Below are positions 1,637-55,711 of a DNA stretch of 64,000 nucleotides, piece after piece. The first letter of the stretch is position 1. Each line of letters opens with the position of its first letter. The notes beneath the pieces were generated by a model, which saw only the letters and a list, made by a program, of their open reading frames with translations, made no database searches and was not told the origin of the DNA. The position numbers and the translations under genes are program-made. Source of the stretch: an uncultured Verrucomicrobiota bacterium (lineage in GTDB: Bacteria; Verrucomicrobiota; Verrucomicrobiia; Limisphaerales; UBA9464); assembly GCA_903821635.1 (NCBI GenBank), contig CAIJLV010000163.1, forward strand, positions 1 through 64,000, in the 5' to 3' direction.

Positions 1637-2476
1637 TCAGCCGGCCTTGCGAGCACGATATTCGCTGGGGCGCCAGCCGGTCCATTTCTTGAACGTATTG
1701 GAAAAAACGAAGGGATTCGCGTAGCCAACCTCCGTGGCGATGATTTCCAGCTTGTCCGGCGTCTCGGTCAGCAACCGAGCCGAGTGTCGAATCCGCAGGT
1801 AGGTGACCTGCTGCATGGGCGTGCGGCCCAATTGCCGCCGACAAAGCCGCCGCAGGTGCTCACCGGAACAATGCGCCCGCCGGGCCAGTTCGGTCAGCGT
1901 CCACGGATTGCCGGGCGCCGCCGCGACCGCTTCCCATAGCTTGGCCAAGCGGTCCTCGACGTGCCACGGTTGGGCGAATCGAACCACGTAGCCATGAATG
2001 AGCTCCACCCAGTGGTGCAAAGCCCACGGCTGATTGCCGCCGGACTGCTCGTGGAACAAGCCCTCAATCGCCATCCGAATCGGTTCCACCGGGAATTTGG
2101 CCAGCACCGGCGCAGAGGCATTGATGAGCGGCCCCTGCCCGGAGGCCGAATCGTAACGCACCCAAGCAAAACCCCAACGTTTGCCTGGCACCGCGTGAAA
2201 CGCGTGGAGGACATGCGGCGGGGCGAGACACGCCATGCCCGCCGTGCACCGTTGCCACCGGCCATCGAGCAAAATGCGACCTTCGCCCGCGAAACAGGCC
2301 AGAAAATAAGCGCCCGGCAGGTCGGTGCGCACCATTGAATAGGGCACCGCGGCATCGGCCAGACCGACGTGGGCCAACCCTTGTGACACCAAGGAGGGAC
2401 AGTCCGCCGCCCGCACGATGCGTTCGCGGGTGTGGGGACCGACCCGATGCGTTTCGATCAGCTCCGGATGCTTCAT
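1637..2476 (-). CDS. AraC-family transcriptional regulator
   Basis: The 279-residue product has an AraC-type N-terminal cupin-like ligand-binding half (about 1-150, with GEGRILLDGRWQ and a conserved-looking HVLHAFHAVPG segment). Its C-terminal half (about 190-279) has two helix-turn-helix motifs: LTELARRAHCSGEHLRRLCRRQLG and IATEVGYANPFVFSNTFKKWTG, ending in the family's P-x-x-Y-R. Such proteins activate sugar or stress genes on binding a small ligand. The frame stays open upstream to 2944, but that stretch does not resemble the family, and the ATG at 2476 gives a normal length. The target is unknown; the neighbour at 2715 is divergent and could be controlled from the shared region. Confidence 0.88.
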   Translation of the reverse strand: MKHPELIETHRVGPHTRERIVRAADCPSLVSQGLAHVGLADAAVPYSMVRTDLPGAYFLACFAGEGRILLDGRWQRCTAGMACLAPPHVLHAFHAVPGKRWGFAWVRYDSASGQGPLINASAPVLAKFPVEPIRMAIEGLFHEQSGGNQPWALHHWVELIHGYVVRFAQPWHVEDRLAKLWEAVAAAPGNPWTLTELARRAHCSGEHLRRLCRRQLGRTPMQQVTYLRIRHSARLLTETPDKLEIIATEVGYANPFVFSNTFKKWTGWRPSEYRARKAG

Positions 2477-2714
2477 GGCGGGATCGCCAAACAGTTTGGC
2501 CAGTCGCCGGTCGGAACACAATCCGCCGCCACTGATTTTCGCCCCCACAGCGCTTCGGTCAGGCGGGCGCGCTAGGCACTTTTTACCAACCCACCCGGTC
2601 GTCCGTGGGGACCGGAGGCGAAATTGGAAAAAACTGCCTGTTGACGGTTGGCACCCGCTCTGTCCCGTTGCAAGTGGCAGCCACGACCGGAGGATCTCGG
2701 GTTGCCATCGATCC

Positions 2715-3398
2715 ATGATCAAACCGCTCACGGGAGTGTTTTCAGCCGTTTTGCTCGGCGGTATGCTGGCTTCTACCCAAGCCGCGTCGTTTGTCGTCGG
2801 CGTTTGGGATTTCGACACTTTCGACTCGGACGCCGCCACCGGCACGCTGTTTACCACCGATGGCACTGGCCAGTTGGCCGCGGTAGGAAATGGAAGTTTT
2901 GAGTTCGGCTCTCCCGCCGGCTCTTCCGGCAGTGGCCCCGACAATTCGGCGTTGCACCTGCTGGCGCCAGCGGGCTCGGAGGCGGGCAGTCAGATCGGCG
3001 CCGACTTCGGCCTTTCGACCCTCGGTTTTCAGGACATCCAGATCACGTTCGACTTCCGGCATCCGCCGCTTTCCGACCTGCCGATTCGGTTCGAATACTC
3101 TATCGACGACGGCAATTTCTGGACTGAAGCCGCGCTGTATTCGCCAAGGGACGACGGCTCGTGGGCAAACAGCAACCTGATCAACCTCGGCTTTGAATTC
3201 GGCGCAGCCAACAACTCCAACCTCCGCTTCCGGGTCGTGGGCGACATGAGCTCCGCGCTGGGCACGGACACCGTGTTGTTGGAATTGGACGGCGTTACCG
3301 TCACTGGGCAGCCCTCAGCCGTGCCCGAACCGACGGCCGTGGTCATGGGCGTGGGCCTCGTCCTGTTGGCCGCCGGCCGGTGTTTCGTGCGCCGTTAA
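2715..3398 (+). CDS. PEP-CTERM sorted secreted protein
   Basis: The 227-residue product begins with a signal peptide (MIKPLTGVFSAVLLGGMLASTQA). It has a beta-rich body (about 25-195, FDF and FEYSIDDGNFW strands). At the end it carries a PEP-CTERM signal: VPEPTAVVMG, a hydrophobic stretch and a final FVRR. Known PEP-CTERM proteins are cut and anchored by an exosortase during export; no exosortase is in this window. The body resembles no enzyme I know. This tail differs in sequence from the three near-identical tails at 22.3, 23.5 and 27.1 kb. The start is set by the signal peptide; the long upstream open frame is not credible. Confidence 0.85.
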   Translation: MIKPLTGVFSAVLLGGMLASTQAASFVVGVWDFDTFDSDAATGTLFTTDGTGQLAAVGNGSFEFGSPAGSSGSGPDNSALHLLAPAGSEAGSQIGADFGLSTLGFQDIQITFDFRHPPLSDLPIRFEYSIDDGNFWTEAALYSPRDDGSWANSNLINLGFEFGAANNSNLRFRVVGDMSSALGTDTVLLELDGVTVTGQPSAVPEPTAVVMGVGLVLLAAGRCFVRR

Positions 3399-8392: not shown

Positions 8393-10582
8393 ATGATCCG
8401 TCTCCCTTGCGTCTTGGGTTTGGCGTTTGCCCTGCTGGCCCTGCCCGTGAATGTCACGGCCGCCCGTTGGCGGTGGTCGAACCCCCTGCCCCACGGCAAC
8501 AACGTCAACGATTTCGCCTACCGCACGAACCGGGGTTACGTGCAGGTTTGCGATCAAGGCCAAGTCTATACCAGCACCGACTCCCTGGCCTGGACCCGGC
8601 ATGACCTCGGCTTCCGTGAGCAACTTCGGGCCGGGCTTTTTTTCGGCGATCGCTTCGTGGCGACTGGAGAGTCTGGGCGCGTGCTGTGGAGCGACGATCT
8701 GGTCGCCTTCAAAACCCTCAACCTCGGCACCCCAAACTGGCTCGAAGGCTTGGCCGCCTCCAGCACCCGCCTCGTCGCCGTGGGCGACCACGCCGCCCTC
8801 TATGTCAGCGACACCGGCACCAACTGGACTCTGCAACCGCTGCCGGCAGCCCAGCAGGCGTGGTTCCGCGGCGCCGCCTGGGGCGGCACCGCGCCGGGGC
8901 TCTTCGTGGTCGTCGGAGAAAATAGCACGATTCTAACCAGCGCGGACGGACTCACTTGGACCAAACGCGCCGTCAGTTCCGGTAACGGCGCCCACCTCAA
9001 CCGCGTGATCTGGGCCGGGGGTGGTTTTGTCGCGGTGGGCGACAGCGGGACCGTGGTTTTCGGCAACGCCGCGGGCACCTCGTGGGTTCGGCAGCAGGCT
9101 TCCGGCGCCTCCGGCGACCTAAACGCGGCCGCGGCCGCCAGCAATGCCGCCCGCTTAGTCGTGGGGGATCAGGAAGCACGCCTCGCCGTCTTGCTGGCCA
9201 ATTCAGTGGTTTGGATCTCCCAGAACTCAGCCTCTTTCAGCGCGCCGGTCCCGACCGCGAACTTTCTCAGCGCCGTCTGGGATGGGGAATACTTCCTACT
9301 CGGCGGCCGGTCCGGCCTCTTGGTTTACGGTCAACCCACGGGTATTCCGGGGATCGTTTCCTGGACCCCGTATACCAGTCCCAGCCGCAACTGGCTGTTT
9401 GACCTCACCACCGCGACAGCCCTCGGCACCAACCTCAGCGTCACCGCCACCGGTTCCAGTCTGCTTTACACGACCAACCGCACGACCAACACCTTCTACG
9501 TCGCGGCCGGTGACCGGGCGACGCTCCTGAATTCCGACGAGGGCGTCACTTGGTCGAGTTCACTGGCCCCGGCCTCGGCCACGAACCAGACGTATTTCGG
9601 CGTGGGCGGCAACGACCGTGGACTGGTCGCCGTGGGCAGTGCCGGCACGCTTTCATTCAGTCCCGTGGCTTACTCATCACTGCTTTCGACCAATCGTTTT
9701 ACCAACGGAATCGCGAGCACTGAAGTGGTGCTGACCAACTGGTTCAACACGCTCGGGCTGGCTTGGTATGCGGCCACGGCGGGCACGACCAATGATCTAC
9801 AGGCCGTGGCCGCCTCCGGCTCCTGCTATGTGATCGGTGGGGCCAACGGCTTCCTCGCCACCAGCGAGAACGGCACCGATTGGACGCCCCAAACTTCAGG
9901 CACGACCCGCTACCTCAGCGGACTCGAGACGTATGCCGACGGGTTTGTGGTCGTCGGCGACGCCGGCACAATTCTTACGTCGCCGGAGGGGATCACTTGG
10001 ACTCCACGCCCGTCCGGCACCAGCAACTGGCTTTACCGCGTGCGCTCCGCCAACGGCCAGTTGGTCGCTGTGGGCCAGAACGGCACCATCGCCACGAGCA
10101 CGAACGCCACAACTTGGACGCTAGCCAACACCGGCGTGACGAACTGGTTAAACGACGTTGATTTCATCGGCGGCCAGTGGTTCGCCGTCGGCAACCAAGG
10201 CACCCTCCTCACCAGCCCCGACGGCAGCACTTGGACACCCGATCCGACCTTACTCACGGGCAAATCGCTCTACACGCTCGCGACCCTGCGGGGACAATTG
10301 GTCACCGCCGGGGTCGAGGGCGTAATCCTGCGCGCCCAAATTGCCCCCTTTCCCACCCCGGTCCGCGTGGCGAATTACCCGAAGTCCGCCGCTGAATCAC
10401 TGTTCCTCTTGCTCGGGTCGCCAGATCAAACCTTCGATCTGGAACGCGCCACGGACCTGCTTTCGTGGCAACCGGAAGCCGCCCTCGAAATCACCGATCC
10501 CAGCGGGGCGCTGCTTTACCTCAGCCCGCAGACAAATGACGTTGATCGGCAATGGTTCCGGGCGGTTGAAACCACACCCTAA
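8393..10582 (+). CDS. Secreted BNR/YCF48-like propeller protein
   Basis: The 729-residue product has a signal peptide (MIRLPCVLGLAFALLALPVNVTA). It then has many repeats of about 40 residues built on an Asp-box-like core: LTSADGLTWT, ATSENGTDWT, LTSPEGITWT, ATSTNATTWT and LTSPDGSTWT, each preceded by FVAVGDxGTI-type strands. Such repeats form beta-propellers in the sialidase/YCF48 superfamily. No catalytic residues of sialidases are visible, so a binding or structural role is more likely. The last 49 residues start FDLERATDLLSW and end near QWFRAVETTP, a terminal module also seen in three other secreted proteins in this window. The ATG at 8393 directly precedes the signal peptide. Confidence 0.85.
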   Translation: MIRLPCVLGLAFALLALPVNVTAARWRWSNPLPHGNNVNDFAYRTNRGYVQVCDQGQVYTSTDSLAWTRHDLGFREQLRAGLFFGDRFVATGESGRVLWSDDLVAFKTLNLGTPNWLEGLAASSTRLVAVGDHAALYVSDTGTNWTLQPLPAAQQAWFRGAAWGGTAPGLFVVVGENSTILTSADGLTWTKRAVSSGNGAHLNRVIWAGGGFVAVGDSGTVVFGNAAGTSWVRQQASGASGDLNAAAAASNAARLVVGDQEARLAVLLANSVVWISQNSASFSAPVPTANFLSAVWDGEYFLLGGRSGLLVYGQPTGIPGIVSWTPYTSPSRNWLFDLTTATALGTNLSVTATGSSLLYTTNRTTNTFYVAAGDRATLLNSDEGVTWSSSLAPASATNQTYFGVGGNDRGLVAVGSAGTLSFSPVAYSSLLSTNRFTNGIASTEVVLTNWFNTLGLAWYAATAGTTNDLQAVAASGSCYVIGGANGFLATSENGTDWTPQTSGTTRYLSGLETYADGFVVVGDAGTILTSPEGITWTPRPSGTSNWLYRVRSANGQLVAVGQNGTIATSTNATTWTLANTGVTNWLNDVDFIGGQWFAVGNQGTLLTSPDGSTWTPDPTLLTGKSLYTLATLRGQLVTAGVEGVILRAQIAPFPTPVRVANYPKSAAESLFLLLGSPDQTFDLERATDLLSWQPEAALEITDPSGALLYLSPQTNDVDRQWFRAVETTP

Positions 10583-15316: not shown

Positions 15317-17365
15317 ATGATTCTACCTAACTGGCCTTGGGTCCGCTGGCTGACCGCGGTTGCACTCCTTCTGCCGGATGGCTTGGCCCAAGCGGGCATC
15401 ACGAGTTATGGCGCGTTCAAGGGGCGGAATTATTTCCAAGCCTCCGCCGCCCCGCCCACCGCGAGTCTGGAAGAATCCCACTTCGCCTTCTTTTTCGCTC
15501 AAGGGGCAGCCCAAGACGACATCGTTTTGGCCACCGCGACGCCGCACGGCAGCACGGTTCCCATGTTCATGGTCGCGAGTGAACTTGATCCGGAGCGGGT
15601 CGAGGCGGAATCGTTTTACAACACCGAAGCCGCGTTGAACGCCGCCGTGCCGAACGAGCCGGTCACGTTTTCCATCTTTGACTCCACGTTCCAAGATTAC
15701 ACCGCCTCGCTGACACTGGCTGGCGATGGGTATCCGGCGCCGACCGGCCTCAGCAATTTCGCCGCTGCCCAGCAAATTGATGCCCGCGCGGCGTTTTCCC
15801 TCCACTGGACGTCGCCGGTTGGCCTCACGGCCGATGACTTCATCGTGCTGCAGCTCGAAAACAGCGAAGGCCCCTTGTGGGCGTCCCAATTTCCCGGACT
15901 ACCCGGGGCTCTCGCTGGAACCGCCACCTCGTTTTCGATCCCAGCCAGCCTGCTCATCGGCCAGGACTTGTCGCTCAACCTCACCTTTGTAAACGTGACC
16001 CAGCAGGACACCACCTCGATTAGCGGCGCCACCGGGCTGAGCGGCTACGTCAGCTCCATCGACATCCCGCTGAAACTTGCCAGCGGTGGCACCGGTGGCG
16101 ACACCACCCCGCCCCGCCTGCTGAGTTCGACGCCCGCTTCGCCCGCGACTGGCGTGCCCACCAGCACCTCGCTGACGCTCCATTTCAGTGAAGCCATGCA
16201 AGCGGGCCAACAGGTCAACTGGTTCAACGTCCCGAACACGGACGCCATCACCTACTCGTGGAGTCAAGACGGCGAGACGCTTACATGCTCCCTGCCCGGC
16301 GGCTTCCCCGCCAATGCCTCGATCATTTGGGCGCTGGACCCAGACTCGTTCAAGGATCTGGCCGGCAATTCCCTGACGGGCGCTGCCCTCGGCGGCGTGT
16401 TCGCCACGGCGGGCAGCGGTGGTTCCAATCCCTGCGAGGGCGGCCTCAACGAACGAACCAACCTGTTCTTCGTTTCCAAGGAAATCTCGTATCAACAGAC
16501 CTCCGCCTCCGCCCCGGTCGAGCACGGGGACCCGGTGGCTAGTTTCGGGACCTTCTTTACGCCCGCGGCCGGCACCCCGGTCACGGCCGCCTCGGTGCAG
16601 TTGCCGGGGGGTGAGGTGAAGAACCTGACCAGCCTGTTCGGAAACTACTTCCTGAGCGCCGAGGCCACGTCGGAGGCCGCGCTCATTGCCGCGTATCCGG
16701 TGGGATCCTACACCGGCACGCTCACCGCCGGCAGCAACACCGGCAGCGTCACCTTGCCGGCCGTCGCTGCCCCGCCGGTGCCGCAGGTCGCCAACTACGC
16801 CGCCGCGCAGGCCGTGGATCCGACGGCTGCGTTCACGCTCCAGTGGGGAGCCTTCACCGGGGCTGCCGGCAACGACCGGCTACAGCTCACCGTGGCGGAC
16901 GACACGGGCAAGACGGTCTTCCAAGCCCCAGACGAATGCGCCCAGCCGCCGGTCGTGCTGGCCAGTTCCGCGACGGCGGTGACGTTACCGGCCAACCTCT
17001 TGGCCGCGGGCAAGACCTATCAGGCTGAGTTGCGTTTCATGAAGCTGGGCGATTTCGTGACCCAGTCCGTGCCCGCCTTTCAGGGCGCCGCCAGCAGTTC
17101 CAAGCTCACCCGGCTCACCCTAAAAACCACCGGCGGCGTGCTCGACACCGTGCTCATCACGGCCTACCGGCTGCCGGCGGACGGGCGGTTCGAGGTGGAA
17201 GTCAAAGCCGCGGCCAGCCAGACCGTGTTCCTAGAAGCTTGGGTGAACTTCAACGCGTGGGAACCGGTGAACGGCGGCGTCGCCGGCGCGAATGGCCAGC
17301 TCACGTTGAAGGACCAGCGCTTGCAGGTGCCCGACGCGCAGGCGTATCGCGTGCGCACCCAGTGA
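15317..17365 (+). CDS. Secreted protein with SbsA-like Ig domain and shared C-terminal module
   Basis: The 682-residue product has a signal peptide (MILPNWPWVRWLTAVALLLP to about GLAQA). Near residues 260-370 it has a Big_5/SbsA Ig-like domain that starts with TTPPRLLSSTPASPATGVP and contains LTLHFSEAM. Two related segments (about 140-245 and 490-600), each starting P-x-x-xNFAAAQ or VANYAAAQAVD, look like an internal duplication: both have AFSLHW or AFTLQW and DDFIVLQL or NDRLQLTV. The last 46 residues (VFLEAWVNFNAWEP to AYRVRTQ) match the terminal module of three other secreted proteins here. It is probably a surface or matrix protein. ATG 15317 is chosen over TTG 15302 because the signal peptide follows it directly. 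Confidence 0.75.
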   Translation: MILPNWPWVRWLTAVALLLPDGLAQAGITSYGAFKGRNYFQASAAPPTASLEESHFAFFFAQGAAQDDIVLATATPHGSTVPMFMVASELDPERVEAESFYNTEAALNAAVPNEPVTFSIFDSTFQDYTASLTLAGDGYPAPTGLSNFAAAQQIDARAAFSLHWTSPVGLTADDFIVLQLENSEGPLWASQFPGLPGALAGTATSFSIPASLLIGQDLSLNLTFVNVTQQDTTSISGATGLSGYVSSIDIPLKLASGGTGGDTTPPRLLSSTPASPATGVPTSTSLTLHFSEAMQAGQQVNWFNVPNTDAITYSWSQDGETLTCSLPGGFPANASIIWALDPDSFKDLAGNSLTGAALGGVFATAGSGGSNPCEGGLNERTNLFFVSKEISYQQTSASAPVEHGDPVASFGTFFTPAAGTPVTAASVQLPGGEVKNLTSLFGNYFLSAEATSEAALIAAYPVGSYTGTLTAGSNTGSVTLPAVAAPPVPQVANYAAAQAVDPTAAFTLQWGAFTGAAGNDRLQLTVADDTGKTVFQAPDECAQPPVVLASSATAVTLPANLLAAGKTYQAELRFMKLGDFVTQSVPAFQGAASSSKLTRLTLKTTGGVLDTVLITAYRLPADGRFEVEVKAAASQTVFLEAWVNFNAWEPVNGGVAGANGQLTLKDQRLQVPDAQAYRVRTQ

Positions 17366-23661: not shown

Positions 23662-25662
23662 ATGCGTCCCTCCCTCCGCAGTCTCCCTTCGCTCCTTTTC
23701 GCGTTGGGGCTTGTGCTCGCCGGCCCGCCTTCCGCCACGGCCCAAGTGCCGCAACTCCTCAACCACCAGGGCCGGGTGGCCGTGGGGGGGGTGAACTTCA
23801 ATGGCTCGGGCCAGTTCAAGTTCGCGCTCGTCAATGCTGCCGGCTCGCAGAGCTACTGGAGCAACGATGGCACCAGCGTCGCGGGCGGTGAACCCACGGC
23901 GGCGGTGACACTGAACGTCAGCCGTGGCCTTTACTCCGTGCTTCTGGGCGAGGCGTCGCTGCCCAACATGTCACCGGTGCCGGCTACCGTCTTCAGCCAG
24001 TCGGCGGTGTTTTTGCGGGTGTGGTTCAATGACGGCACGCATGGTTTCCAACTGCTGACGCCCGACCAGCGCATCGCCGCCGTAGGCTACGCGATGATCG
24101 CAGAAGGCGTAGCCGACGGAACGATCACCACCGACAAACTCGCGGACGGGCACGTGACCGCAGCCAAGCTGGGGGCGGGCGCCGCCTTGGGCAATCTCGC
24201 GTCTGGTTCCATCGACAACAGCCTGCTCGCCAATAGCGCGGTCAGCGTGACGGCCGGTTCCGGCCTCACCGGCGGTGGCTTTGTGCCGCTGGGCGGCAAT
24301 ACAACCCTCCACCTTGCCGACGGTGGCGTTACGTCGGCCAAGCTGGCGCCTAATGCCGTAGGAATCGGCCAGTTGGACACCGGGTCGGTCAGTTCGGTGC
24401 TCGCGACCAAATCTTATGTGGATGCCAATGTCAGCAGTCTCAACGCGAGTGTTAGCGGACTGAGCGCCGCGGCGTTTGCCTGGGAAACGGTTTCCTATCT
24501 TTCGCACCCTAGCGGCAAACAGGCGCAGGCCAACCGCGGTTACCTGGTGGATGGACCCTACTTTGGTCCGAGTGGCGGCGGATTTCCGGTGACACTGCCC
24601 GCGTCGCCCAGCGTGGGCAACATTGTGCGCGTGACGGGCATCGGCTCGGGCGGTTGGCGGCTGCTGCAGAACGCGGGGCAAACCATCAACGCGGGCGCGT
24701 TTGCCCGCGCCCGGCAGCATTTGACCCAGCGCTCAACACTGGTGTTCCGGGCGGTGGCCGGCTCCGCCGATGGGCTGAAATTGGTCGGCGTGGTCAACGG
24801 CGGACAGATTCACACCTCGGGTGACGCAGGGATTACGTGGACTGCCCGTGAATCTGCCCGCACTTGGTCGGCTGTCGCTTCGTCATCGGATGGCACCAAA
24901 CTGGTGGCGTTGTTCAACGGAGGCCTTTGCACCTCGGCCGATTCGGGGGTGAACTGGACCTTGCGCGCGCCTAACTCCGCTTTCTCCGGCGTCGCTTCCT
25001 CGGCCGACGGGATCACGCTTACGGCGGTGTATGACGGCGGGTCATTCGTCTCGGCCAATTCGGGAGTGAGTTGGATTCCGGGGGGGGCGATTTCCGGAGC
25101 CGGCCTCACGGTTGCCTGCTCGGCGGACGGGACCAAATTGGCGGCCTCCGGTTCCGCGGGATTTTTTCTTTCGGCCAACACGGGGGCCACTTGGTCGTTC
25201 AAGGATTCCGGCTCCTACGGGGCAGCGATGTCTGCGGATGGCTTGACGCTGTTGCGCGGAGGAAGCCTCTACATGCAGGTTTCTTTTAACGGTGGATCAC
25301 TTGGGTTGGCGCGTGACCCGAGATTTAGTTTCTTGCCCTCCAACCCGAATTGGTCGGCGGTAGCCTGTTCAGCGGACGGTTCCGCCATGGTCGCCAATAG
25401 CAACGGGCTCATGTTCACCTCGTGGGATTCGGGTTGGACTTGGAATTACACCCAGGGCGCAGCCAACGCCGCTTTCTGCTCGGCGGATGGGGCACGGCTA
25501 GTGATGGCGCGGGCCGACGGTGTCTACACCAGCTCCGCTTACACCACCGTCGGAACTGCAGGCGCCCTGATCGGCAGTCAGAACTCAGCCATCGAACTCC
25601 AATACGTTGGCAACGGGGTTTGGCAGCCGCTGAGCTTCAACGGTCCCATCAACCGCCAATGA
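23662..25662 (+). CDS. Secreted stalk/propeller protein (tail-fibre-like N-terminus, BNR-like C-terminus)
   Basis: The 666-residue product has a signal peptide (about 1-28, ending PPSATAQ) and a domain of about 130 residues starting QLLNHQGRVAVGGVNFNGSG and ending LLTPDQRIAAVGYAM. This is a form common at the start of large secreted proteins of this phylum. A stalk-like region follows with TITTDKLADGHVTAAKL and GVTSAKLAPNAVGIGQL, like fibre shafts. From about residue 375 come repeats with Asp-box cores (TSGDAGITWT, TSADSGVNWT, SANSGVSWI, SANTGATWS, SWDSGWTWN) as in BNR propellers. No enzyme residues are evident. Its stop overlaps the next start by four bases, so it begins a coupled three-gene set. 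Start chosen at the signal peptide. Confidence 0.8.
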   Translation: MRPSLRSLPSLLFALGLVLAGPPSATAQVPQLLNHQGRVAVGGVNFNGSGQFKFALVNAAGSQSYWSNDGTSVAGGEPTAAVTLNVSRGLYSVLLGEASLPNMSPVPATVFSQSAVFLRVWFNDGTHGFQLLTPDQRIAAVGYAMIAEGVADGTITTDKLADGHVTAAKLGAGAALGNLASGSIDNSLLANSAVSVTAGSGLTGGGFVPLGGNTTLHLADGGVTSAKLAPNAVGIGQLDTGSVSSVLATKSYVDANVSSLNASVSGLSAAAFAWETVSYLSHPSGKQAQANRGYLVDGPYFGPSGGGFPVTLPASPSVGNIVRVTGIGSGGWRLLQNAGQTINAGAFARARQHLTQRSTLVFRAVAGSADGLKLVGVVNGGQIHTSGDAGITWTARESARTWSAVASSSDGTKLVALFNGGLCTSADSGVNWTLRAPNSAFSGVASSADGITLTAVYDGGSFVSANSGVSWIPGGAISGAGLTVACSADGTKLAASGSAGFFLSANTGATWSFKDSGSYGAAMSADGLTLLRGGSLYMQVSFNGGSLGLARDPRFSFLPSNPNWSAVACSADGSAMVANSNGLMFTSWDSGWTWNYTQGAANAAFCSADGARLVMARADGVYTSSAYTTVGTAGALIGSQNSAIELQYVGNGVWQPLSFNGPINRQ

Positions 25663-26489
25663 ACGAGGCATCCATGCATCACCCCAGCAGATCTCTGCCA
25701 GACGGCCGGACAGGGCTGGTTGGACTCACCGCCCATCCGGTTTGGATGGTCCTTCAAGCCATTGTGGCGTTGCTGCCGGTCGGCTCACTTTGGGCGGAAT
25801 CGCGTTCCAGTGCCGACTATTTGCTGCGGCACGAAACTTTCGCTCTGGGCGGGCCGCGGGCTACCAGCGCCGACTACGCGCTGGCGGCCGAGGTCGGCGC
25901 TGAAAGGGGGGCGAGTTCCGCTGCCGACTACCGGTTGCACCGCGGTTTCGTCGGCCAGCTCAGCGAACCGCCGGTGGCTGAAACCGACCTCGCCTACCTG
26001 GGCGCCGGCACGCGTCTTAAGGTGAGTTTCGCCTGGCTGCTCCGGAACGACCACGATGCGGAGGGGGATGCGCTGACCTTGGCGGGTTTTGACGCGGTCA
26101 GTGCGGAGGGCGGCAGCGTCAGCGCCGAAGGCGGGTGGCTCGTTTACCAAGCCCCGCCCGCCTTTGCCGGAACCGACACGCTCACCTACCGGCTAGCCGA
26201 CGCGAGCGGTGAAGAGACCGCGGGCTTTGTGTTCATCCAGGCCCGGCCGGTCACCGGCGGTATTTCCTTCAACATTGTTGCCGCTGAGGTCTTGGCGGGC
26301 GGTCCGGTGCGGGTGCGCTGTGTGGGCATCCCTGGCCGCAGCTACGCGGTGCAGGCGAGCGACAGTCTGATTGCTCCCAATTGGACCACGCTCAGCACCC
26401 CTGCCGCCGCGGCCAACGGCCGCTTCGAAGCCATCGACGCCGATGCCGCCCTGCACTCCACCCGTTACTACCGGACCCTTGAGCCATGA
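25659..26489 (+). CDS. Secreted Ig/cadherin-like protein with shared C-terminal module
   Basis: The 276-residue product has a hydrophobic N-terminal signal (about 30-48, ending SLWA). Repeated SSADYLLRHETFALGGPRAT / TSADYALAAEVG / SAADYRLHRGFVG segments follow, then a cadherin-like or Ig_17-like domain (about 105-190, RNDHDAEGDALTLAGFDAV to AGTDTLTYRLAD). The last 48 residues (YAVQASDSLIAPNW to RYYRTLEP) are the terminal module shared with three other secreted proteins here. It overlaps the gene before by four bases (ATGA at 25659-25662) and the gene after by four (26486-26489), so translation is coupled on both sides. An internal ATG at 25674 is a possible start. Confidence 0.75.
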   Translation: MNEASMHHPSRSLPDGRTGLVGLTAHPVWMVLQAIVALLPVGSLWAESRSSADYLLRHETFALGGPRATSADYALAAEVGAERGASSAADYRLHRGFVGQLSEPPVAETDLAYLGAGTRLKVSFAWLLRNDHDAEGDALTLAGFDAVSAEGGSVSAEGGWLVYQAPPAFAGTDTLTYRLADASGEETAGFVFIQARPVTGGISFNIVAAEVLAGGPVRVRCVGIPGRSYAVQASDSLIAPNWTTLSTPAAAANGRFEAIDADAALHSTRYYRTLEP

Positions 26490-53683: not shown

Positions 53684-55711
53684 ATGAACCAGCTCCTCAG
53701 CGCTTCGGTGATCGGGCTCGCTCTGACTGCCGGGGCCTGCGCCCAATCAATCGCCCGAGTGTGGGACGAACAGATTCTCTCCGCCATCCGCATTGATCGG
53801 CCGCACCCCCCGGTGCATGCGCGCAATCTCTTTCACCTGTCGGCGGCGATGTATGACGCTTGGGCCGCCTACGACGCCACGGCCACGGGCTTGCTTTACC
53901 ACGCCAAACACACCGCGCCCGACGTGGTCGCAGCCCGCACCGAGGCGATCAGTTACGCCGCCTACCGACTGTTGCGGCAGCGTTATGCGCTGTCGCACAA
54001 TGCCCCCGCTACCCTGTCCCTGCTCGACGCCCGGTTCTCTGCCCTCGGCTTTGACAAGCGCGAACTGAGCCTTGACCCGACGACTCCCGCCGGCGTGGGC
54101 AACGCCGTGTTCGCCACGCTCGCCGCGTATGTGGCCGAAGACGGTGCCCGACAAAATTTCGCCTATGCCGACCGACCGCCACTCGAAGGCGGCTACCAGT
54201 CAGCCAACGCCTTGCCCTTGGCCATCGCGATCCCCGGCACGCTGGCGTTCAACGTCAACCGCTGGCAGGCCCTCGCCCTGACCGAAGCGACCACTCAAAA
54301 CGGCATCCCGACGGACTCGATTCAAACGTTTCAAGGGGCCCATTGGCTCGACGTTCGCCCGTTCGCGCTCACGCGGGACAACGCGTCCCAGCCTTGGATT
54401 GATCCCGGGCCGCCGTCCGCCCACGCCACTGCGACTCATGCCCAGTTTACGGAGGAGGTGGTGGCGGTGCTGCGTTACGCCAGCCAACTCAGCCCCGACG
54501 ACGGCGTGCTCCTTGAGCTTTCGCCGGGGCATTTCGGCCACAATTCGCTCGGCCAAAACGACGGCACCGGACATCCCCTGAACCCCAGCACGGGCCAGCC
54601 CTACGCGCCTAACGTGGTCAAGCGCGGCGATTTTGCCCGCGTGCTGGCCGAGTTCTGGGCGGACGGCCCCAGCTCCGAAACGCCGCCCGGGCACTGGAAC
54701 GCGCTCGCCAACTACGTCAGCGATTCCGCCGGCCGGTCCCAGCGCATTGGCGGCACGGGGCCCGTAGTGGATGACTTGGAATGGGACGTGAAACTCTATT
54801 TTGCGCTCAATTCCGCCCTGCACGACGCGGCCTGCGCCGCTTGGTCGCTTAAGCGCCATTACGACGGCTGGCGTCCGGTCACCGCGGTTCGCTTCATGGG
54901 CCAGCTCGGCCAAGGCACTGAGCCGACCGCCCCCCGTTATCATCCCCACGGTTTGCCGCTGATTCCTGGGCTGATTGAGCTGGTCACGGCGGAAACCGCC
55001 GCCACCGGCCAACGGCACGCCGGTTTTCCCGCGGGCGCCCTCGTGGTCCACTCTTGGCCGGGACAGCCCCGTGATCCCGCCATCCAAGCCTCGGGCGTGC
55101 GTTGGATTCGACCGGAGAACTGGTTACCCTATCAAAAGCGCACCTTTGTCACCCCCGCGTTTCCGGGCTACGTCTCCGGTCACAGCACGTTCAGTCGAGC
55201 CGCGGCAGAGGTGCTCGCGGCCTTCACTGGCTCGCCGTTTTTTCCCGGTGGCCTCGGCACGTTCACGGCACCGAAAGACAGTTATCTGGGCGCTGAAAAG
55301 GGCCCCTCAGAAACAGTCCAGCTCCAGTGGGCAACCTATTTCGACGCGGCCGATCAATCCGGAATTTCCCGACTCTGGGGCGGCATCCACCCGCCGGCCG
55401 ACGACTTCGCGGGCCGGCACGTGGGCGCGGAAGTCGGCCGGCGGGCATGGGCGCTCACCCGGCGCTATTTCGAGGGCACCATTCATCGCGTCGGCGCGCC
55501 GATGACGTGGGCGCGCTTGGCCGAGGGCGGCATTCTTACCCGTTGCGAAACCGTCCGGGGCCAAACGTATCAACTGCAAGCCACCGCCGACCTAAAGGTG
55601 CCCTTTGCTGATGAACCCGGGGGCTCGTTCCAAGCCGTAGATTCACCGACCTTGCAGACCCACCCCACTGCGGCCGCGGGGCGCTTCTTCCGTCTGCTCA
55701 CGTTACCCTGA
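53684..55711 (+). CDS. Secreted PAP2 / vanadium-haloperoxidase-like enzyme with shared C-terminal module
   Basis: The 675-residue product has a signal peptide (MNQLLSASVIGLALTAGACA) and the complete three-part vanadate/phosphate-binding signature of the PAP2/vanadium haloperoxidase superfamily. The parts are K-x6-R-P (K390, R397, P398; KRHYDGWRP), SGHS with His500 (GYVSGHSTFS), and SR-x5-H-x3-D with His569 (SRLWGGIHPPADD). It could be a haloperoxidase or an acid phosphatase; sequence alone does not decide. The last 47 residues, YQLQATADLKVP to RFFRLLTLP, are the terminal module shared with three other secreted proteins here. The start is at the signal peptide. Confidence 0.9.
   Translation: MNQLLSASVIGLALTAGACAQSIARVWDEQILSAIRIDRPHPPVHARNLFHLSAAMYDAWAAYDATATGLLYHAKHTAPDVVAARTEAISYAAYRLLRQRYALSHNAPATLSLLDARFSALGFDKRELSLDPTTPAGVGNAVFATLAAYVAEDGARQNFAYADRPPLEGGYQSANALPLAIAIPGTLAFNVNRWQALALTEATTQNGIPTDSIQTFQGAHWLDVRPFALTRDNASQPWIDPGPPSAHATATHAQFTEEVVAVLRYASQLSPDDGVLLELSPGHFGHNSLGQNDGTGHPLNPSTGQPYAPNVVKRGDFARVLAEFWADGPSSETPPGHWNALANYVSDSAGRSQRIGGTGPVVDDLEWDVKLYFALNSALHDAACAAWSLKRHYDGWRPVTAVRFMGQLGQGTEPTAPRYHPHGLPLIPGLIELVTAETAATGQRHAGFPAGALVVHSWPGQPRDPAIQASGVRWIRPENWLPYQKRTFVTPAFPGYVSGHSTFSRAAAEVLAAFTGSPFFPGGLGTFTAPKDSYLGAEKGPSETVQLQWATYFDAADQSGISRLWGGIHPPADDFAGRHVGAEVGRRAWALTRRYFEGTIHRVGAPMTWARLAEGGILTRCETVRGQTYQLQATADLKVPFADEPGGSFQAVDSPTLQTHPTAAAGRFFRLLTLP

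Follow-up and report, generated by a model that had tools for sequence, protein, structure and literature searches.

A C-terminal module exchanged with PEP-CTERM tails on secreted proteins of Verrucomicrobiota

Introduction

Four secreted proteins encoded within a 64,000-nucleotide stretch of DNA from an uncultured Verrucomicrobiota bacterium (contig CAIJLV010000163.1; the whole stretch is hereafter called the window) have differing bodies and similar endings, which raises the question of what this common ending is and what it does for the proteins that carry it. Verrucomicrobiota are abundant bacteria that degrade polysaccharides and possess large secretomes. The literature that was found is silent on how those of their proteins that lack a PEP-CTERM tail reach, or stay at, the cell surface. 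The PEP-CTERM tail of the PEP-CTERM/exosortase system (TIGR02595, PF07589, PF09721) is composed of a short motif, a transmembrane helix and a basic end, and is probably cleaved (Haft et al. 2006, PMC1569441). An earlier, sequence-only reading of the window had proposed that the four endings represent a second C-terminal sorting or anchoring module, or a small beta-sandwich cap.

Results

Four window proteins and the statistical support for a common ending

The four carrier proteins, all on the forward strand, were defined by translation and Pfam analysis. The first (8393–10582) consists of a signal peptide, a BNR-like (DUF6242-like) propeller body and the module (10358–10579; A2 profile E 2e-11); the second (15317–17365) combines a Big_5 domain with the module (17156–17362; E 1e-13). 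The third (25659–26489) is Big_9/cadherin-like and is closed by the most consensus-like copy within the window (26271–26486; E 2e-28), while the fourth (53684–55711) is a haloperoxidase-like protein with a DUF6851/VCPO/PAP2 body and a divergent copy of the module (55502–55708; E 1e-9). No Pfam match was obtained at the C-termini of these four proteins. They do end alike on differing bodies, as had been claimed (FDLERATDLL...WFR, VFLEAWVNFN...AYR, YAVQASDSLI...YYR and YQLQATADLK...FFR, respectively); the proposed length of 46–49 residues, however, was too short, as the module measures about 60–75 residues, with profile matches beginning at 10358, 17156, 26271 and 55502. Similarly, the Trp said to follow the first strand is near-invariant across the family (95%), but is missing in the copy at 55568, i.e. 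that of the haloperoxidase-like protein. The sole PEP-CTERM tail of the window belongs to the open frame at 2343–3398 (forward strand, VPEPTAVVMGVGLVLLAAGRCFVRR), which served for comparison and is free of the module, in agreement with the claim that PEP-CTERM occurs only on other secreted proteins.

When the four window tails are aligned alone the result is poor, with one G and one R as the only invariant columns, as might be expected if beta-rich C-termini merely resembled each other by chance. This alignment being too weak, a profile was made instead from 36 modules that belong to other Verrucomicrobiota, with no window sequence among them, and the 629 open frames of the window (minimum length 60 aa) were all searched with it. 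The top four frames were exactly those with the copies at 26271 (E 3.5e-16), 17156 (E 3.1e-5), 55502 (E 7.6e-3) and 10358 (E 9.5e-3), the fifth-ranked frame scoring 0.24, while the best E-values among controls were 1.3 (reversed frames), 0.13 (shuffled frames) and 0.13 (4000 shuffled C-termini). This ranking, together with about 78 copies across the bacterium's own genome, refutes chance resemblance, the probability of which we consider negligible. The four window modules are thus genuine members of one family, although those of the proteins at 8393 and 53684 are, taken singly, only moderately significant by profile; membership of the latter finds further support in its 13 orthologues, which have endings of the same type.

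Size, placement and distribution of the family

The tail at 26.3 kb was searched against 19 related genomes, which yielded many similar C-termini and an alignment of 32 rows. In the own genome 78 matches were detected (profile, E < 0.05), two of them on the same contig just past the window (69392 and 74084). Seventy of the 78 finish no more than 25 residues before the stop codon and two longer variants likewise reach the C-terminus, whereas four copies come after the signal region at the N-terminus and another two have about 90–100 residues behind them. Of the roughly 102 copies in loci of other genomes, 94 stand at the C-terminus, so that a profile of the module does fetch further C-termini, as the sequence-only reading had anticipated. 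Its expectation that matches would cluster at the C-termini of secreted proteins was borne out for most copies, and a crude score gave signal-peptide-like N-termini to 60 of the 72 carriers, compared with 69 of the 152 control frames; the exceptions are six copies placed directly behind a signal peptide (L029, L074, L091, L127, L141 and L168) and a few internal or tandem ones (L161 being tandem).

The bodies of the own-genome carriers are unrelated, and include Ig, cadherin-like, trypsin, matrixin, redoxin, haloperoxidase, LTD and PQQ propeller domains. Three individual carriers may be mentioned. The protein at L091 (G000:C175, about 33.8 kb) displays a signal peptide, the module and then a part that weakly matches pyruvate phosphate dikinase and PEP-utiliser domains, which is odd for an exported protein; L106 (G000:C237:2741-2923) is a 171-aa protein comprising hardly more than one membrane segment and the module; and in the subtilase-like L168 (frame residues about 60–474) the module is located between the signal peptide and the prodomain, in a reading frame that seems broken near its C-terminal end.

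The relatives possess 22–95 copies per genome, with the exception of one of the 19, which has none. When about 85,000 species were scanned with the consensus protein, at least 36 loci were confirmed, which lean toward that consensus as a consequence (e.g. NFPQRFYR), and among the matches listed all derive from Verrucomicrobiota or from unnamed/PVC bins. In a sample of 79 Verrucomicrobiota genomes matches at 1e-6 were present in 24. The 116 pattern matches in viral contigs included no relative of the module. The module accordingly looks restricted to the phylum, as the sequence-only reading had suggested.

Sequence and predicted fold of the module

The module consensus is GGxLRLRFTGVPGRTYRLEASTDLxxxxWTPLGTVTAGxxGTLEFTDPxAxxxARFYRVV, which corresponds to the family pattern G-R-T-Y-x-[LV]-[EQ]-[AS]-[ST]-x-[DN]-L...W-T-x-L...F-x-D...R-[FY]-[YF]-R-[VA]. 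Besides the Trp, the Arg of RFYR (95%), Glu/Gln (83%), Tyr, Gly and Leu (79% each) are conserved. No Pfam or NCBIfam model covers the module, and no description of such a domain was found in the literature searched. AlphaFold2 modelling (40 sequences) of the isolated 26.3-kb copy produced six strands with a pLDDT of 90.4 and a pTM of 0.79, in line with the small beta-sandwich that had been suggested, while the divergent 55.6-kb copy modelled poorly (pLDDT 62), its first strands and last strand agreeing with those of the 26.3-kb copy. The module is one mobile domain with a predicted six-stranded, Ig/FN3-like beta-sandwich fold.

In general terms the predicted fold resembles Fibronectin type III (PF00041) and other Ig-like sandwiches, for which Foldseek reached an E-value of 0.05 at best. 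VIA-align gave Z-scores of 6–7 to FN3 domains (e.g. 3d1m, 68 residues at 2.3 A), within the range of a common arrangement, and these middling scores for the predicted structure would reflect a common fold and say nothing on function. Moreover, PF00041 was absent from the Pfam matches of the 32 aligned modules (one weak fn3_4 match being the only fn3 hit) and from the own genome at 1e-5. Unlike the seven strands of FN3, six are predicted for the module, which would stop where the last FN3 strand is expected to follow. A viral fold library contained nothing below E 0.07.

The best PDB profile match, albeit weak and partial, was to the discoidin-type domain of a Paenibacillus chitosanase/glucanase (E 5e-4, positions 11–57), reflecting local likeness to F5/8 type C/discoidin domains (CBM32) around the Y-x-[IV]-Q-x-S...W-T-T of the module. 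Along with weak Pfam matches to F5_F8_type_C_2 (E 0.013, five of 32 modules) and several weak Foldseek hits to carbohydrate-binding domains, this raises the question of whether the module is itself a carbohydrate-binding domain, of the F5/8 type C (CBM32) or another Ig-like type, that fixes secreted enzymes to polysaccharide. The module has about half the length of CBM32, and the match reaches an E-value of just about 5e-4 to 1e-3. We regard a carbohydrate-binding role of this kind as quite improbable: no Foldseek hit was significant (best E 0.05), a conserved exposed aromatic cluster was not demonstrated, and the redoxin, haloperoxidase and choice-of-anchor carriers have no obvious glycan substrate.

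Exchange with PEP-CTERM tails and gene adjacency

Five pairs of adjacent paralogues were identified in which one member ends in a PEP-CTERM tail and the other in the module on a common body (L194, L198, L256, L289 and L293, the last of these in the window's own genome). The paired bodies are 30–38% identical (E 2e-25 to 5e-46) and their homology ends at or near the tail junction, here marked by a slash: ...YYVQFNA/VPEPSEYA against ...TRFLFQA/GDTISKAV (in full, ...TPSETYYVQFNA/VPEPSEYAAM against ...TESAVTRFLFQA/GDTISKAVHG). Both members of the L293 and L194 pairs exceed the 55-bit cut-off of the NCBIfam choice-of-anchor M model (NF038134), with 107 and 72 bits in one pair and 128 and 91 bits in the other; the L198 and L289 bodies are HpiC1-like, the module-bearing member of L289 falling under the cut-off. 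It is thereby shown that the module is exchanged with the PEP-CTERM tail at the same place on the same bodies. As 'choice-of-anchor' names the body, which carries PEP-CTERM or the module here, the module would be a further tail for such bodies.

Additionally, the genes adjoin each other. Eighty regions around PEP-CTERM genes (79 distinct), picked by E-value and not by their neighbours, contain 22 module genes where 5.5 would be expected (p 1e-7), or 12 (p 0.01) when two sets of orthologous gene pairs are each counted once. In these two conserved pairs, each found in about six loci (L220, L247, L270, L274 and L277; and L228, L234, L238, L242, L250 and L290), a PEP-CTERM gene is followed by a module gene; the two genes are separated by a few bases or overlap. 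In the fetched loci no protein ends in both tails, consistent with the earlier claim that module proteins are free of PEP-CTERM. One further candidate for tail exchange, L295, whose body is homologous to several PEP-CTERM proteins, was dropped since one frame spans the PEP-CTERM gene and the next module gene. This single 664-aa frame (L295:2457-4448, G006:C2) has a second signal-peptide-like stretch mid-way, reflecting a lost stop codon or an assembly error.

Like PEP-CTERM in the exosortase system (PMC1569441), the module occurs in many copies per genome at the C-termini of unrelated proteins with signal peptides, and the two are swapped on the same bodies. They differ in their nature: the module is a predicted folded sandwich of about 65–75 residues without the PEP motif, transmembrane helix or basic cluster of PEP-CTERM, module tails close with R-[FY]-[YF]-R-V-x-P and contain no hydrophobic segment, and in NCBIfam searches no module matches TIGR02595.

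Orthologues of the haloperoxidase-like carrier

All 13 orthologues of the haloperoxidase-like protein in relatives finish with a tail of this type, their bodies being 50–77% identical and their last 75 residues 17–53%. The tails of L212 and L215 (marginally also L207, L210 and L213) no longer score clearly, and were recognised by position and ending. The presence of the tail is constrained, while its sequence drifts much faster than that of the body.

These features bear on the possibility that the module is a passive structural cap guarding secreted multidomain proteins at their free end, in which case module carriers would be released and their PEP-CTERM sisters anchored. A stand-alone fold that is predicted with confidence, rapid sequence change with only core positions (W, R, Y, G) being kept, the occurrence at either end and in tandem, and the lack of an anchor segment are all in keeping with a cap. 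We nevertheless find it somewhat unlikely, as the tail is retained in 13 of 13 orthologues, some carriers are single-domain enzymes, for which a cap is unnecessary, and a cap leaves both the adjacency to PEP-CTERM genes and the restriction to one phylum unexplained.

Exosortase and secretion systems across genomes

Exosortase (PF09721) was detected in all 18 module-bearing relatives and was absent from the one module-free relative. In the 79-genome sample 23 of the 24 module genomes also possess PEP-CTERM, 22 genomes have PEP-CTERM only and 33 have neither (Fisher 1.4e-6, phylogeny uncontrolled), whereas the copy numbers of the two tails are uncorrelated (rho 0.14). Independence of the module from exosortase was therefore not upheld, its presence being nested in PEP-CTERM genomes despite unrelated copy numbers; based on this nesting, the module seems to be an addition in lineages already using exosortase.

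Co-occurrence with one particular secretion system, which had been put forward as a check, did not emerge, given that secretins are ubiquitous in the relatives and the type IX tail is unmatched in the own genome. The type IX C-terminal domain (TIGR04183, Por_Secre_tail) is, like the module, an Ig-like beta-sandwich that ends many secreted proteins of one phylum and diverges fast; the module has another motif and, unlike the type IX domain, N-terminal copies. TIGR04183 had no match in the own genome (G000) and exceeded its cut-off in one relative (19 genomes), and PF14349 (SprA) had none in any genome searched, controls included, this search thus being without a positive control.

Recognition for export across the outer membrane, most simply by the type II secretion system, has also been considered. 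The type II system recognises its substrates by structure, at no fixed end of the protein, which agrees with the N-terminal copies of the module. Furthermore, each of the 19 relatives has two to eight secretin genes, the fewest (two) being present where modules are absent. Yet secretins occur everywhere, the module-free genome included, their number does not track that of modules (rho 0.09) and a direct link to the module is absent, and we deem this role unlikely.

Discussion

The exchange of tails between sister genes is a direct observation, from which we infer the function of the module: as these genes differ only in their tail, it would do the work of a sorting or anchoring tail at the C-terminus, though it has neither a transmembrane segment nor a cleavage motif. 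We tentatively favour the view that it is a folded tail that targets secreted proteins to, or holds them at, the cell surface as an alternative to PEP-CTERM. Besides the tail exchange, this view draws on the many mostly C-terminal copies on unrelated bodies, the frequent signal-peptide-like N-termini of their carriers, the retention of the tail in the haloperoxidase orthologues, the adjacency to PEP-CTERM genes and the confident model of the 26.3-kb copy. Following Sec export the module would fold and stay uncleaved on its carrier, which it would target to, or hold in, the outer compartment of the PEP-CTERM sisters (the cell surface or the exopolysaccharide matrix). Docking would be through the fold and non-covalent, and a cut-and-transfer reaction appears less probable than fold recognition in view of the six N-terminal copies and the lack of any hydrophobic segment or cleavage motif.

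Against this explanation, the N-terminal copies, the tandem L161 and L106 show that the module need not be C-terminal, and the poor model of the divergent 55.6-kb copy also counts against it. The proposal of a second sorting or anchoring module is thus supported by the sister genes, whereas the six copies behind a signal peptide, a rare placement, oppose a cleaved, strictly C-terminal signal. The exchange of tails would equally agree with a sub-functionalisation in which PEP-CTERM forms are anchored and module forms released. Glycan binding could itself be the docking step of targeting or retention. The analysis brought up neither a partner protein of the module nor a receptor or processing enzyme for it. 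A more far-reaching version of surface targeting, which is possible though doubtful, is a phylum-specific sorting system in which an Ig-like tail that folds, stays uncleaved and has no relation to the signals of sortase, exosortase or type IX would be read by a receptor dedicated to it at the surface or in the matrix, on some 60–90 proteins per genome, parallel to PEP-CTERM/exosortase, with genes switching between tails.

The module is a new domain family, and exchangeable C-terminal tails of surface proteins are of an already known kind. A model for the module, which is present in 22–95 proteins per relative genome and has no Pfam or NCBIfam counterpart, would annotate many proteins together. 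Furthermore, the natural tail-swap pairs, in which one body occurs both with the module and with a sorting tail that is already known, make its role in Verrucomicrobiota directly testable.
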